Shown here: piece after piece, positions 2,726 to 13,210 of the stretch
Position numbering within the stretch: position 1 is the stretch's first letter
How the letters are laid out: every line of letters begins with the position of its first letter
NCBI GenBank assembly: GCA_025201365.1
Contig: JAIXMF010000087.1
Location: 1 to 42,647, forward strand
Direction: 5' to 3'
Length of the DNA: 42,647 nucleotides
From: Syncephalis plumigaleata
Taxonomy: Eukaryota > Zoopagomycota > Zoopagomycetes > Zoopagales > Piptocephalidaceae
The notes under the pieces: model-generated
What the model saw: the letters and a program-made list of their open reading frames with translations, nothing else
Databases searched by the model: none
Told to the model about the DNA's origin: nothing
Program-made: the position numbers and the translations under genes

Positions 2726-4190
2726 ATTAAAAATGTTTGTCTAGTGGAATATACGTTTATGCTATGAATGCAACATAGACCATTTGCCTAAATATTGATG
2801 TGTGTATAAATGAGACTGAAAGAGAGATGTGGTGGTGGTAGTGGTAAAAGTAATAGAAAGTGTACGTGTTTGTAGAGAGAGAGAGAGAAAGCAACGAAAC
2901 AGAAAGAGATCAATGTATGATCACAGTATCGTATTGAGCAACCAACACCATGGATAATTAATAATTGCAATACTACTTAGTTGTATGTGCATGAGGCTGT
3001 CAAGTTATGTACAGCTTCAATGTGAGTAATATAATTATACAAAGAGAATGCGGTTACCTAGTGGTTGGTCTAGTAGCAGTAGCAGTAGTCGATTTACATA
3101 TGCATACGTACATGCATACATACACGCATACATATATCCATGCATACATATAGACTAGCTACAACACGAATAACGCCACGTGCCTTGTCCTTGTCAGTAT
3201 TCGTGTGATAACTATTGCAGCATACGTGTTGCCTTGTGCCATTCATTATCTCTCCTCATGTGGCTTGTAGACTAGCGATAGATCATGACAGTCAGGAGAT
3301 ATGACGTCAAAGGTCAGTGGTATTAAAGAACGATGCAGTAATAATGCATTGACACAATAGCAATTACAAAGTCATGAGTTTATTACTAGGCATATGTGTT
3401 AATATGGCATAAGCATCATTAGAATTTGAATGTTAAATCGTAGATTATCAAGACAACAAGATAATAGAACAAGATGGACTATCATTATTATTATACATAG
3501 AGAGTTGGAAAAAGCCTGTAATTAACGCCATATTATTTATTTTTCATCTTTGTATGATTCTTGCTTTCTTCTTTCCTTTGCTTCTTTCTTTCTTTCTTTT
3601 GCTTCTTCTTTCAACTCTTCGTATTTAACGACATTGCATTTGTAAACAGACACTGACATACCATAATTGTTATTGTGCTGTCATTGTTCGATCTACGACA
3701 ATAGTTCGATCGACGTCTTCATCTTTACTTTTATTTCACCTTCGTTAACGCAGAGTGTCTTTTCCTATTCATTTCTCTTTCTCTCGTTCTCTCTCTCTTT
3801 ATCAAGCTCTTTCTTTTTCCATTATTAACCCCTTAGTTAAAAACTGCATGTGCATATTCACCAGTTCTCACAAAGCAGTAACAACCAGCGGCTAGAACGG
3901 CTACTAGCTAGTCTTCTTTCATCTCTCATACTCTTTATTATTCCATAGTGGTCATCTCTCTTTGGCTTGTGTCTAGCTGTTTTGATTCTTCGTGCCATTC
4001 ATTTACCGCTCGACTTATCCAACAGCTGCATACGCTACAATCCGTTGTTCCCTTATACTTGTTTGACAATCAGGGGAAATTGCTTGCATCAGTAATACAG
4101 CAGCACGTTCAATCTCACGTCGACACCACCACTACTTTTCACTAGCAATACTCACTACCCTACCCTTCTGTTCACCTTAGTGACTCGATC
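2726..4190. promoter_or_regulatory. Divergent upstream region
   Basis: No convincing gene. It separates two divergent genes, so it should hold both promoters. A GA-rich patch lies at about 2815-2910, alternating CATA/TACA repeats at 3095-3155, and a long CT-rich tract with repeated CTTT at 3545-3830, the usual appearance of a fungal core promoter and leader in front of the start at 4191. A short open frame at 3948-4145 begins with GTG and is not supported as coding. Confidence 0.5.
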
Positions 4191-7465: not shown

Positions 7466-7869
7466 TTACTTCTTGCTCTTGTTATCCACCTCGACATAAC
7501 GCTCACAAATGCCATAGCTTGCCAGTATCCGTTTGACTTTGGTTACATGATCACCCTGTACCATGATCTCTCGTGCATCCTTTTTACCAGCCACTGGTCC
7601 AACTATCGTGTAGGATGTCAGTTGTTAGTATCAGCTAGTTTCATCTACATGGATAATCAACCAATGGGATAATCAACTACACTTGTATCACTAGTGTAAT
7701 GATGAATACGACATATTTATTTAATAAATGAGAGAATGATCTTGTAGATATACTTGTTGTTGTACTAAGGAATAATGACTTGAATGGCGTGGACACAAAA
7801 GGATCTTGCATCAATACATTCTTGACTTGAATACCTATAATATCTACTTGATGATGTCCTTGTCTTGTC
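7466..7869 (-). other. eIF2D-like SUI1 segment (last two exons)
   Basis: Two exons (7754..7869 and 7466..7602) joined across a 151-nt intron with a TACTAAC branch point read RQGHHQVDIIGIQVKNV, then FLSTTTIGPVAGKK, then EIMVQGDHVTKVKRIL and a lysine-rich end. The order STT-G-P-GKK, then (V)QG(D/N), then a short helix and a KK terminus is what I know from the C-terminal SUI1 domain of eIF2D/Tma64. The PUA and SWIB-like parts of eIF2D are absent from the window. So this is either an exon pair captured by the upstream secreted gene or the remnant end of an eIF2D gene. The family match is by eye and could be wrong. Confidence 0.5.
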
Positions 7870-9693
7870 CTGTAATCATAATGGATTAGTATGAGTATGA
7901 TTATTTGTTGGATTATTACTTACTGCTTATTTCTATCATTCAATCAATGTACGTTGTATTGTGATTAGCATACCGTAAAGGACGATTAAAACCTTGACTT
8001 ACAAGCTGTTATACACAACCATGCATGAATCATGTACCATAGCGTGGTTAGTACACCGATTCATTACGATCACGATGGTAACTTACGTCCTACCATACAG
8101 GAACAGGTGCGGATCATGTGCCATATCGTAGTTAGTATTCATTCAGTACAATCTGAATGATTACTTACACCCTATCATACGCAAGCATATGCGGATCATG
8201 TGCCATATCATAATTAGTACTCATTCAGTACAATCCGCACGGTAACTTACGCTCTATCATACACAAGCATAAGTGAATCATGTGTCATATCGTAGTTAGT
8301 ACTCATTCAGTACAACCCGAATGGTAGCTTACATCCTATCATACACAAACATACGGGAATCATGTGTCATATCGTAGTTAGCACTCATTCAGTACAATCC
8401 AAATGGCAACTTACAAACTGTTATACGCAAGCATATGTGAATCATATGTCATATCGTAGTTAGCACTCATTCAGTACAATCCAAATGATTACTTACGGTC
8501 TATCATACGCAAGCATATGTGAATCATATGTCATATCGTAGTTAGTACTCATTCAGTATACTTCGTGCGGTAACTTACCTTCTATCATACGCAAGCATAC
8601 GGGAATCATGTGTCATATCGTAGTTAGCACATCCATAAATCATGGCCAGAATGATTACTTACGGCCTATCATACGCAAGCATACATGAATCATGTGTCAT
8701 ATCATAGTTAGCACTCATTCAGTACAATCCAAATGATAACTTACGGTCTATCATACGCAAGCATATGCAGGGCATGTGTTATATCGTAATTAGTACTCAT
8801 TCAGTATACTTCGTGCGGTAACTTACCTTCTATCATACGCAAGCATACGCAAGCATACGGGAATCATGTGTCATATCATGGTTAGCGCCTCACTCATTCC
8901 AGCTAGAACGGTAACTTACGGGCTCTTGAAATGGTAATCACATATAATTTTGATTTACACTGCAATTAGCACAGTACACATTACAGTCAATGGTATAGCT
9001 TACCAGCACTCACGCTTGCTTTGACAGCTAAAATAAACATTACAATATGATTAGCATGTCAAAGCAACCATTCAATATTCATGAACTTACAAGCTTCCGC
9101 TAATCATCGGTGGACAATGAAACAATAAGCTACGATTAGTACATCAATCGACATGGCCATAGTAGTCATACGTACCACCTATTTGTGGAATAATTCCATT
9201 TGGATGGTTAGCTCATTGAATGGTATGGTCAGCATGGCATGACTACTACTTACGGCCTATTGATCCATGTACCGTGTCGATATGGCAGTATGATTAGTAG
9301 CATGTCAGGTGGTTTATTTATTTATCGGCAAACCTACGTTCGACTATCGGAATAGACACACACGCACACACATATATGAGGATTGAGCATGATTATACTG
9401 CAGTTAGCACATTGAATGGGATCATTATTACACTGACAACATACCAACTATTGACGGAATAAATGTACAAATAGTGATACAACATGGTTAATACACGGGA
9501 CATTGTGGTCAAATGGTAGACTTGCCAGCTATCGAGCAATCATTAATGAGTCAGCTAGTGTCCATTACTATCATTGTTCCTGTTGTTCCTATGACATACC
9601 ACGACGGGCCAATGCGGGCTTGGCTTCAACGGCGACCAGACTGGTGAGAGCGACAACGGCGACTGCAATAGCGATAATGGCAGAGAACTTCAT
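7466..9693 (-). CDS. Secreted micro-exon protein with eIF2D-like SUI1 end
   Basis: Proposed 23-exon gene, 438 nt coding (145 aa) in 2.2 kb. Exon 1 (9600..9693) opens with MKFSAIIAIAVAVVAL, a clear signal peptide, and ends near LARR. Then come 3-9 nt exons at 9526..9528, 9445..9447, 9338..9343, 9254..9256, 9176..9178, 9091..9099; a 24-nt exon 9004..9027; 5 nt at 8920..8924; eleven one-codon exons (8827..8829, 8745..8747, 8663..8665, 8579..8581, 8497..8499, 8415..8417, 8333..8335, 8251..8253, 8169..8171, 8087..8089, 8003..8005); 2 nt at 7924..7925; then 7754..7869 and 7466..7602. Nearly every intron has GTAAG(T/C), a CTAA branch point and an AG; intron 2 is GC-AG. The frame stays open throughout, passing two dibasic sites (ARR, ERR). 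The last two exons read as an eIF2D-type SUI1 segment. An equally in-frame choice is 9014..9027 plus 8920..8922. Transcript data are absent, so the splicing is a model. Confidence 0.6.
8003..8919 (-). repeat. 82-bp-periodic array of near-identical introns
   Basis: About eleven head-to-tail units, each one intron (mostly exactly 79 nt; 81 nt twice, 90 nt for the first) followed by a 3-nt exon. The conserved unit, read on the minus strand, runs GTAAGT, a TGTACTGAATGAGT stretch, TACTAAC or GCTAAC, TACGATATGACA, then GCTTGCGTATGATAG. Neighbouring introns differ at few positions, while the three bases between AG and GT differ in almost every unit. The first intron holds an internal duplication of GCTTGCGTAT. 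The array is not a simple satellite because splice signals are kept in every copy. Confidence 0.85.
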
Positions 9694-12628: not shown

Positions 12629-13210
12629 CTAAGCAGGTTTGCCAGGCCTATGAGGTTTGCCAGGTTTATGATGATGTTCGTGATGATGTTTATGTGGCCT
12701 TTTAATTCCACTAGTCACACTAGAGCTACTAGGAGTTCCTGGTATCGCAGGTCTGCTAGGCCTACCAGGTTTGCCAGGTCTGCCAGGTCTGCTAGGTCTA
12801 CCAGGTTTGCCAGGTCTGCCAGGTTTGCCAGGTCTATGAGGTTTGGCAGGCCCTTCATCTTTACTACTCACACTAGAGGTACTAGAAGTTCCTGGTGCTG
12901 CGGGGATTTCTGGTATTGCACGTCTAACAAACCTTTTAGCTATCTTTTTGCTTGCTGCATTAACATTTCTCCGGAACAAGGTTTTTATATCGGGCTTGCT
13001 TGATGTTTTGACCATGGACGCTTTACTCGAACAAACATCAGATATGCCACTTGTCTGATAGATATCGTGTGGCAAATAAGAATCTTGTGTACCTCTGGCA
13101 TTAAGTTTATTTTTAACGCTAGCACGACGAATTATTCTAGGTTTGGCATCTACAACAGTCAAAGCAGTCATTACAACTGTGAAAAATAGACATGCTGACA
13201 ATTTGGACAA
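12629..13210 (-). CDS. Secreted collagen-like Pro/Gly-rich protein, 5' end unresolved
   Basis: The open frame of 193 codons begins right after an in-frame TAG with TTG, not ATG. Its first residues, [19 protein letters not shown] then DAKP, form a textbook signal peptide. The TAG fits an acceptor (TTATTAATAG with an upstream ATTAAC branch point), so a short first exon supplying ATG is likely, but I could not find it. The first internal ATG at 13171 would cut the signal peptide in half. Dibasic sites (IIRR, RFVRR) suggest Kex2 processing. The second half carries a repeat of PGKPGRP and PSRPGRP triplets, in effect Gly-X-X collagen-like, then a His-rich [14 protein letters not shown] tail. Probably a cell-wall or extracellular protein; function unknown. 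Confidence 0.7.
12745..12850 (-). repeat. Tandem Gly-X-X coding repeat
   Basis: Degenerate 9/18-bp repeat (plus strand GGTCTGCCA / GGTTTGCCA) encoding the [10 protein letters not shown] region of the collagen-like protein. Confidence 0.8.

Follow-up and report, generated by a model that had tools for sequence, protein, structure and literature searches.

A minus-strand gene at 9693..7924 of a 42,647-nt stretch of the genome of Syncephalis plumigaleata, of the Zoopagales (Zoopagomycota) (contig JAIXMF010000087.1 of assembly GCA_025201365.1, positions 1 to 42,647, the whole of which is called the window here) opens with a signal-peptide exon, continues through a series of small leader exons and then has eleven exons of exactly 3 nt. 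It is one member of a large S. plumigaleata family with dozens of such arrays. As far as their DNA can tell, these seem to be peptide genes with nearly one exon for each residue of the mature part and near-identical introns of 80 bases in between. We regard it as very probable that the gene encodes a small secreted peptide and is laid out as signal peptide, leader, array of one-codon exons, terminal exon with a TAA stop and 3' untranslated region (UTR) exon, with stepwise splicing and exchange of units. The exon length of exactly 3 nt, the open phase-0 codons, the constrained splice sites, the order-dependent cysteines and the leader and terminal junctions of intronless copies can be read from the DNA itself; that the array is spliced we infer, though strongly. 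The run of one-codon exons had been described in an original prediction made from the letters of the window, and it is borne out by counts across the genome, by codon exons free of stops, by a cysteine framework that depends on codon order and by intronless paralogs.

The array of the window

The array proper (8003..8829, minus strand) is read in phase 0 as KTAKTFDSGDL, with one exon per residue; the ten introns in between, 79-81 nt long, are tandem repeats. Its eleven exons are spaced 82-84 nt, and AG stands before and GTAAG after every one of them, as had been predicted for nearly every micro-exon. A tandem repeat with a period of 82 covers 8026..8847, and a period of 246 nt is also present. 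The pattern GTAAGT-N58-88-TAG-NNN-GTAAG has 8 matches in the window, all within the array gene, against 0 in 100 shuffles of the window, in agreement with the earlier claim that the arrangement is not due to chance. Our gene model has 22 exons and 21 introns; 19 exons are shorter than 10 nt, and 16 have exactly 3 nt, or 15 when the leader exon CTT is counted as 9 nt. The earlier figure of 19 short exons is thus kept, that of fifteen 3-nt exons holds under one of the two counts, and that of about 22 introns becomes 21. Scans of the window for tRNA genes and Rfam families gave no matches.

A family of array genes

The assembly surveyed comprises 32.6 Mb in 383 contigs, among which the window is contig C370. 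Comparison of the array DNA of the window with the genome gave 181 matching stretches (40 of 116 candidates scored), and grouping of the listed array matches gave at least 39 loci, the window included. The signal-peptide part of the public protein P0008 has 144 matches in the genome (E ≤ 0.001), a number that includes intronless members and near-identical contigs, the latter probably alternative haplotypes. In addition to the window, 29 loci were read (20 taken with flanks and nine trimmed, with one near copy added). Each of the 29 and the window has at least nine strict 3-nt exons, and the longest model, L018, has 78 exons of 3 nt. With up to 3 mismatches, the junction between terminal and UTR exon has 119 matches, 100 of them listed; AG precedes the UTR exon at 62 of these 100 (62 of 67 listed 3-mismatch places), which points to several dozen loci with arrays.

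Database searches found 26 public proteins, 17 of them named S. plumigaleata and nine others (one from NCBI, one from ENA and seven from JGI). P0018-P0023, P0025 and P0026, which come from short metagenome contigs, have the signal peptide in common with the family; P0018, P0019, P0021 and P0022 continue into an apparent intron 1, and P0020 and P0023 have longer open frames. The family probably exists beyond this isolate. Among the named S. plumigaleata models, as read here, P0009 and P0011 enter intron 1, and P0005, P0010, P0013 and P0017 enter the UTR exon. The literature results listed, which took in few of the subscription journals, describe neither runs of single-codon exons nor this gene family.

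Exon length and splice signals

Across the 32.6 Mb, GTAAGT-N58-88-TAG-NNN-GTAAGT occurs 1,334 times and its reversed-pattern control 40 times; with a CAG acceptor the counts are 562 and 14, which brings the YAG total to 1,896 against 54. The excess is tied to the length of three. With a TAG acceptor and 4 bases between the sites there are 11 matches (control 70), with 5 bases 4 (control 40) and with 6 bases 71 (control 16), 32 of the last 71 being in one array on two contigs (C58 and C223). In 19 models, L021 being left out of this calibration, the TAG pattern catches 300 exons, compared with 609 model exons of 3 nt. By extrapolation, and with near-identical contigs counted, the genome may hold about 2,700 exons of 3 nt.

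The nearest-AG distance is 3 in 538 of 746 cases and, on the antisense strand, in 2 of 114; the distances of 0 (42 cases) and 1 (55 cases) are partly 3-nt exons such as GAG and AGA. At the three exon positions the entropy is 1.90, 1.98 and 1.84 bits, near the maximum, and at the flanking positions it ranges from 0 to 1.93 bits, most values being below 1.5. These codon counts leave out the near copies L009, L013 and L017. The intron statistics, like those on duplicated units below, leave out L009, L013, L017, L021, L038 and the first 2,301 bases of L020. Array introns have a mean length of 79.6 nt (standard deviation 3.5, n=700). A CTAA-type branch point had been predicted for each intron; CTAAC/T is present in 564 of the 700, so the claim applies to most and not to all. 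Where a branch-like motif is found (682 introns), the median distance from the branch A to the acceptor is 43 nt. A chance origin of the micro-exon pattern was rejected on the basis of the reversed-pattern controls, the counts for 4 and 5 nt, the antisense distances and the shuffles of the window.

Coding signal and predicted peptides

The 737 non-redundant codon exons include no stop (L009, L013, L017, L021 and the first 2,301 bases of L020, which overlap L019, are left out), compared with 16.7 stops expected from the composition at each position; a probability attached to this absence would overstate it, because the units are related. When the joined exons are read in the +1 and +2 frames, 5 and 75 stops are found in 682 codons. 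A relaxed set of codon exons, which like the cysteine counts leaves out L009, L013, L017, L021 and L038, also gives no stop (0 of 813). Glutamine is encoded in array exons by CAA 27 times and by CAG not once, compared with a ratio of 110:70 in nine long open reading frames (ORFs) of the window, taken mechanically, as would be expected if an exonic CAG were used as an acceptor. Codon usage was also tried as proof of the frame and failed: raw usage is uncorrelated in any frame, and synonymous codon usage correlates in all three frames, most strongly in the wrong frame +2.

Adjacent cysteines (CC) occur in 12 of 26 arrays, and each of those 12 has exactly four cysteines, arranged C..CC..C. Among 10,000 permutations within arrays, none reached 12 arrays with CC (mean 4.1). 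The near copies L019 and L035 were both kept among the 26 arrays, so the 12 correspond to about 11 independent ones. A dibasic RR is invariant in 11 of 11 aligned family sequences, several intronless copies being without it, and after this RR the 11 sequences have little in common except the framework cysteines.

Models built from splice signals with no information on the frame reach the TAA exon in frame in 10 of 22 cases. Frame-aware models, which are helped by the frame rule, were obtained for 20 of the 22 loci that have both ends. The public protein BDF22DRAFT_685769 (P0001) spans the gene of L029 and includes NPINGSMDYVYWKPIVPGYWGPIN, the residues of 24 successive one-codon exons. P0001 confirms the predicted open chain of codons, not RNA.

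Constraint and duplication of units

In five pairs of near copies, differences were counted at 10 of 1,368 splice positions, 14 of 456 codons and 914 of 16,644 other sites. Only in L016/L017 do codons differ significantly less than introns (2/105 vs 386/3,437; p 4e-4). Simple positive selection between near copies was rejected as an explanation, codons being not significantly faster than introns in the five pairs. L012 and L013 differ by the gain or loss of an exact 83-nt unit together with its one codon.

Duplicated units were also compared with each other. Where one flanking intron is 96-100% alike within the same array, there are 0.37 changes per codon site (18 pairs); where both flanking introns are alike, the figure is 0.31 for the 29 pairs whose introns differ by 4-6% and 0.44 for the 75 pairs at 10-13%. 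Of 120 differing codons, 9 are synonymous (244 pairs, which are not independent). In duplicated units, codon changes are about 3 to 6 fold faster than changes in both flanking introns (2-13% intron divergence, related pairs), an effect that is weaker once both flanking introns are required to be alike. The comparisons of near copies and of duplicated units together suggest that units are gained or lost whole, then come to differ in their payload and are kept afterwards.

Intronless paralogs

At 33 places, 7 of them exact and the others with no more than 2 mismatches, a TAAGC-like sequence is fused to the UTR exon without an intron; 19 intronless loci (L042-L060) were read. The leader is found in joined form as RRAP in L045, L047, L049, L055 and L056, as RRAVV in L058 and as RRTTVERRAP in L060. 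The TAA within TAAGC or TAATC closes the frame in L047, L049, L056 and L060; a TAA 6 nt earlier does so in L044, L045 and L046. These copies look like retrocopies of spliced mRNA, because they are joined and partly decayed. For the leader and the terminal junction the intronless loci are good support; for the predicted stop their support is partial.

Leader and 3' end of the window gene

Exon 1 (9600..9693, minus strand, as are all features of the gene) holds the start codon, the signal peptide and the start of the pro-region (MKFSAIIAIAVAVVALTSLVAVEAKPALARR plus 1 nt) and ends in phase 1; its DNA is 81-93% identical to paralogs in the longer matches. The micro-exons of the leader are CTG (9526..9528, phase 1, with the GC donor GCAAGT), TTG (9445..9447, phase 1), the 6-nt TCGAAC (9338..9343), GCC (9254..9256, phase 1), GTG (9176..9178, phase 1, with the donor GTACGT) and CTT (9091..9093). 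CTG with its donor, TTG and GTG are shared with L009, L024 and L028, in which CTC is found at the place corresponding to CTT. The donor GCAAGT stands behind the CTG exon in all four type-A leaders printed (window and paralogs). TCGAAC yields VERR, which is contiguous in the intronless L060. In place of CTT, the scripted model picked a 9-nt exon (CGGAAGCTT, 9091..9099) with another acceptor, and the frame is kept either way.

These are followed by a 24-nt exon (CTGTCAAAGCAAGCGTGAGTGCTG, 9004..9027, phase 1), whose donor is placed like that of the 9-nt exon in L024 and L028, and by a 5-nt exon (AGCCC, 8920..8924), which sets the phase from 1 to 0 and is placed like the 5-nt exons of L028 and L029. 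The scripted model reads the 5-nt CAAGC (9018..9014) instead of the former, with the frame open too, and CCC at the latter. The 24- and 5-nt exons were both part of the original prediction, and their positions agree with the corresponding exons of L024, L028 and L029. The array codons then begin at 8829 (AAG), 8747 (ACC), 8665 (GCC), 8581 (AAG), 8499 (ACC), 8417 (TTT), 8335 (GAT), 8253 (AGC), 8171 (GGT), 8089 (GAC) and 8005 (CTT). A product of 60 residues, MKFSAIIAIAVAVVALTSLVAVEAKPALARRAVVERRASVKASVSAEPKTAKTFDSGDLK, is predicted when the 24- and 5-nt exons are used; the leader exons of the scripted model differ slightly.

Behind the array, the penultimate exon AAATAAGCA (7924..7932) adds a last residue K and the TAA stop (7929..7927), which the phase-0 frame reaches within it. 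The exon that follows (7740..7869, low end approximate) starts GACAAGACAAGGACATCATC, is conserved in paralogs and is read as 3'UTR. Among the paralog 3' ends listed, an exon ending TAAGC[A/G] stands before GTAAGT and the next exon starts near CAAGACAAGGACATCATC; the exceptions to this ending are one TAAACA and one TAAGCC. Outside the gene as read lies a SUI1-like fragment (7466..7602, minus strand; PF01253, E 1.4e-4), whose match of 22.6 bits is below the Pfam cut-off of 25.5 bits. It corresponds to the C-terminal part of SUI1 (VQGDHVTKVKRILASYGI...) and is found downstream of the window gene and of a few family copies: among the 3' ends listed (500 nt each) only the window, L009 and L028 have it, and P0010 suggests one further copy. 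It was probably carried along in duplications.

Other loci

Three clusters of the pattern outside the main family were read, of which L040 and L041 begin with a signal peptide. L040 (C1:2472800-2475300) belongs to another subfamily: its first exon has RRDHVPPAAFRSLE-type repeats, and it is followed by single-codon exons and by the UTR exon known from the main family. L041 (C1:2255600-2256900) is a short gene with a signal-peptide exon and four 3-nt exons only, and perhaps resembles an early stage in the growth of an array. In L039 (C1:1412300-1417600), candidate exons, most of them 3 nt long, form a long run between introns that have diverged further; a first exon was not found. In L031 and L038, the arrays of C58 and C223, 6-nt exons of two codons are in part mixed with 3-nt ones, and L026 (C101) has a 6-nt exon, TAACTC, with an in-phase stop one exon ahead of the usual terminal exon. 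Of the near copies L021 and L023, one array holds an insertion of 2,181 nt. The usual tail is absent from the 3' part of L016, where the last codon exon is followed by unrelated sequence with a possible mobile-element ORF. Elsewhere in the window, 12629..13210 (minus strand) encodes a protein that looks secreted, contains dibasic sites and GKPGRP repeats like those of collagen, and has no Pfam match.

Proposed mechanism

In the mechanism that we propose, each unit of an intron of about 80 nt and a 3-nt exon would act as a cassette for one residue. The introns would be removed singly by intron definition, probably from 5' to 3'; ordered, intron-defined splicing is likely because a 3-nt exon has no room for both sets of splicing factors together. 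The upstream exon would lengthen by one codon at each step, much as in recursive splicing, except that three bases are retained each time. By unequal exchange at the near-identical introns, whole units would be added or removed, so that the peptide would change by whole residues with its frame intact, and duplicated units would later acquire new codons. The RR sites of the leader are putative Kex2-like cleavage sites ahead of the hypervariable mature peptide, and processing probably yields a hypervariable peptide that is often disulphide-linked. Syncephalis species are mycoparasites. Our guess, prompted by secretion, dibasic sites, cysteines and hypervariability, is that the peptide is used on fungal hosts or competitors. 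We also put forward, tentatively, the idea of an intron-borne peptide library, in which arrays of up to about 78 cassettes would be read stepwise, exchange between introns would add, drop or swap residues, codons of duplicated units would change several times faster than the introns on either side and skipping of weak cassettes would turn one gene into a set of peptides.

Several observations weigh against the one-codon-exon gene as we read it. The donors of the leader are weak. In four of the five near-copy pairs, codons and introns do not differ significantly (p 0.22-0.78). Of the other splice-only models, L026 ends one exon early, L014 and L022 overrun and nine end earlier, that of the window included, which we attribute to misplacement of the phase-setting or leader exon. 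At least six frame-aware models (L011, L014, L015, L021, L022 and L029) contain doubtful exons, and there are none for L017 and L026. P0001 is without four array codons (P, C, R and E), exactly those with the donors GTAGGT, GTAAAT and GTAGAT, and the start of its mature part differs and looks like intron read-through; these features suggest a program prediction, so P0001 is not independent proof of splicing. Among the intronless loci, 12 of 19 end at neither TAA: L042 and L043 have TAG at the junction, L058 has TGA in another frame, L050, L051, L054, L055 and L057 have no stop ahead of the junction, L048, L052 and L059 have lost the start or the frame, and in L053 a signal peptide was not found. 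A search for intronless copies of the array-encoded mature peptide, made with two peptides and no positive control, gave 0 matches, and the intronless sequences in hand contain no convincing match to an array peptide, so that proof in joined form is missing for the array itself.

Alternative readings

The end of the gene had been placed elsewhere in the original prediction, which kept the frame open from 9693 to 7466 through exons of 2, 116 and 137 nt. Such a longer protein finds some support in the UTR exon, several copies of which have one open frame, in the public models P0010 and P0017, which take in that frame (and in P0010 the SUI1-like piece as well), and in the intronless loci, 5 of 19 of which read on across the terminal junction. 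Phase 0, however, stops at the TAA at 7929..7927, a stop that other family members have as well and at which the ORF closes in the intronless L047, L049, L056 and L060, and the 2-nt exon CA would need the AG inside TAAG as its acceptor. The supposed 116-nt exon is the family-conserved exon read as 3'UTR, and the 137-nt last exon (7466..7602) is the SUI1-like fragment, a weak PF01253 match present at few of the 3' ends listed. We consider the longer protein extremely improbable. Highly improbable, too, is that the array is one long recursively spliced intron or a decayed repeat, its 3-nt pieces skipped or irrelevant and the protein made of leader and tail. Near-identical tandem introns alone would multiply AG-NNN-GTAAG, and recursive splice sites of zero length are known elsewhere, but a passive repeat would not hold the length at exactly 3, avoid every stop in one phase or yield C..CC..C in 12 of 26 arrays, and the exon bases vary nearly freely (the entropies given above) beside neighbouring sites that are largely fixed.

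How the arrays arose and how completely they are read could also be seen differently. Introner-like elements might have been inserted at each codon of older intronless genes, without duplication of units; intronless family members with ordinary ORFs are present, the loci have intron sequences in common, and array peptides are often non-repetitive despite similar introns. This origin is nevertheless unlikely: insertion at each phase-0 codon boundary, 3 nt apart, would demand a special target rule, the exact one-unit difference between L012 and L013 fits unit duplication, repeats in the peptide track repeats of units (KAKAKAK in L010, the 246-nt period in the window), and the intronless copies, some of them decayed, resemble retrocopies. 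Conceivable, though doubtful, is a reading in which the array exons are real and many are variably skipped, each gene giving a population of peptides by alternative splicing of single residues. Skipping any set of array exons would leave the frame intact, each being 3 nt long and in phase 0, and weak donors (GTAGGT, GTAAAT and GTAGAT) do occur at codons that P0001 leaves out. On the other hand, the GTAGGT-donor codons of L029, TGC at 677 and TGT at 3076, give framework cysteines, which argues that they are usually kept, and the omissions of P0001 are probably the choice of a program.

If the arrays are expressed as one-codon-exon genes, they would offer a natural system in which to study intron definition and the order and fidelity of splicing, as runs of tens of 3-nt exons are unexpected for recognition by the spliceosome. 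They would also build a peptide one residue at a time by means of introns, in a form with which gene finders cope badly. Should the products act on other fungi, dozens of new small peptides, often with four cysteines, would become available for study.

Comparison with known systems

Fungal secreted peptides processed by Kex2 have a signal peptide and dibasic sites and, in familiar cases, are encoded in ordinary exons. The array genes resemble them in their predicted signal peptide and in the dibasic sites ahead of the mature part, and L040 in addition has a repeated pro-region of the RRDHVPPAAFRSLE type. Recursive splice sites of zero length exist in other organisms; in the array genes there are three bases between AG and GTAAG, not none. 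Two reports, on Arabidopsis APC11 and Fusarium CYP621A, show that splicing can include single exons as short as 1-3 nt, for which intron definition with recursive splicing is proposed there (PMC4674806, PMC12940212). Those are lone tiny exons in ordinary genes, whereas here they form runs of tens.

The original prediction had drawn a parallel with micro-exon genes (MEGs) and aphid bicycle genes, and as an analogy it is apt. Schistosoma MEGs, as described in the available parts of one paper, likewise encode secreted proteins in many small exons, mostly multiples of three, and are hard to annotate automatically; most of their exons are 15 bp, with a minimum given as 6 bp in the passage and 3 in the abstract, and their introns range from 100 to almost 5000 bp (PMC10526429). 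In the window gene, a signal-peptide exon with many small exons that keep the frame is present by prediction. The array genes differ in having almost only 3-nt exons and near-identical tandem introns of 80 nt, and no sequence relation to MEG proteins was seen among the 26 proteins found by database search. Bicycle genes are presented, in the sections available, as fast-evolving putative effectors with many small exons of one phase, their internal exons being in phase 2 with an average of about 17 exons, and the aphid megacycle gene as having more than 100 microexons (PMC9168663). The Syncephalis array, in contrast, is in phase 0 (its leader in phase 1), with one codon per exon and tandem units. 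Membership of either group is not indicated, and the architecture, which is real and very unusual, stands nearest in spirit to the schistosome MEGs and the aphid bicycle genes.

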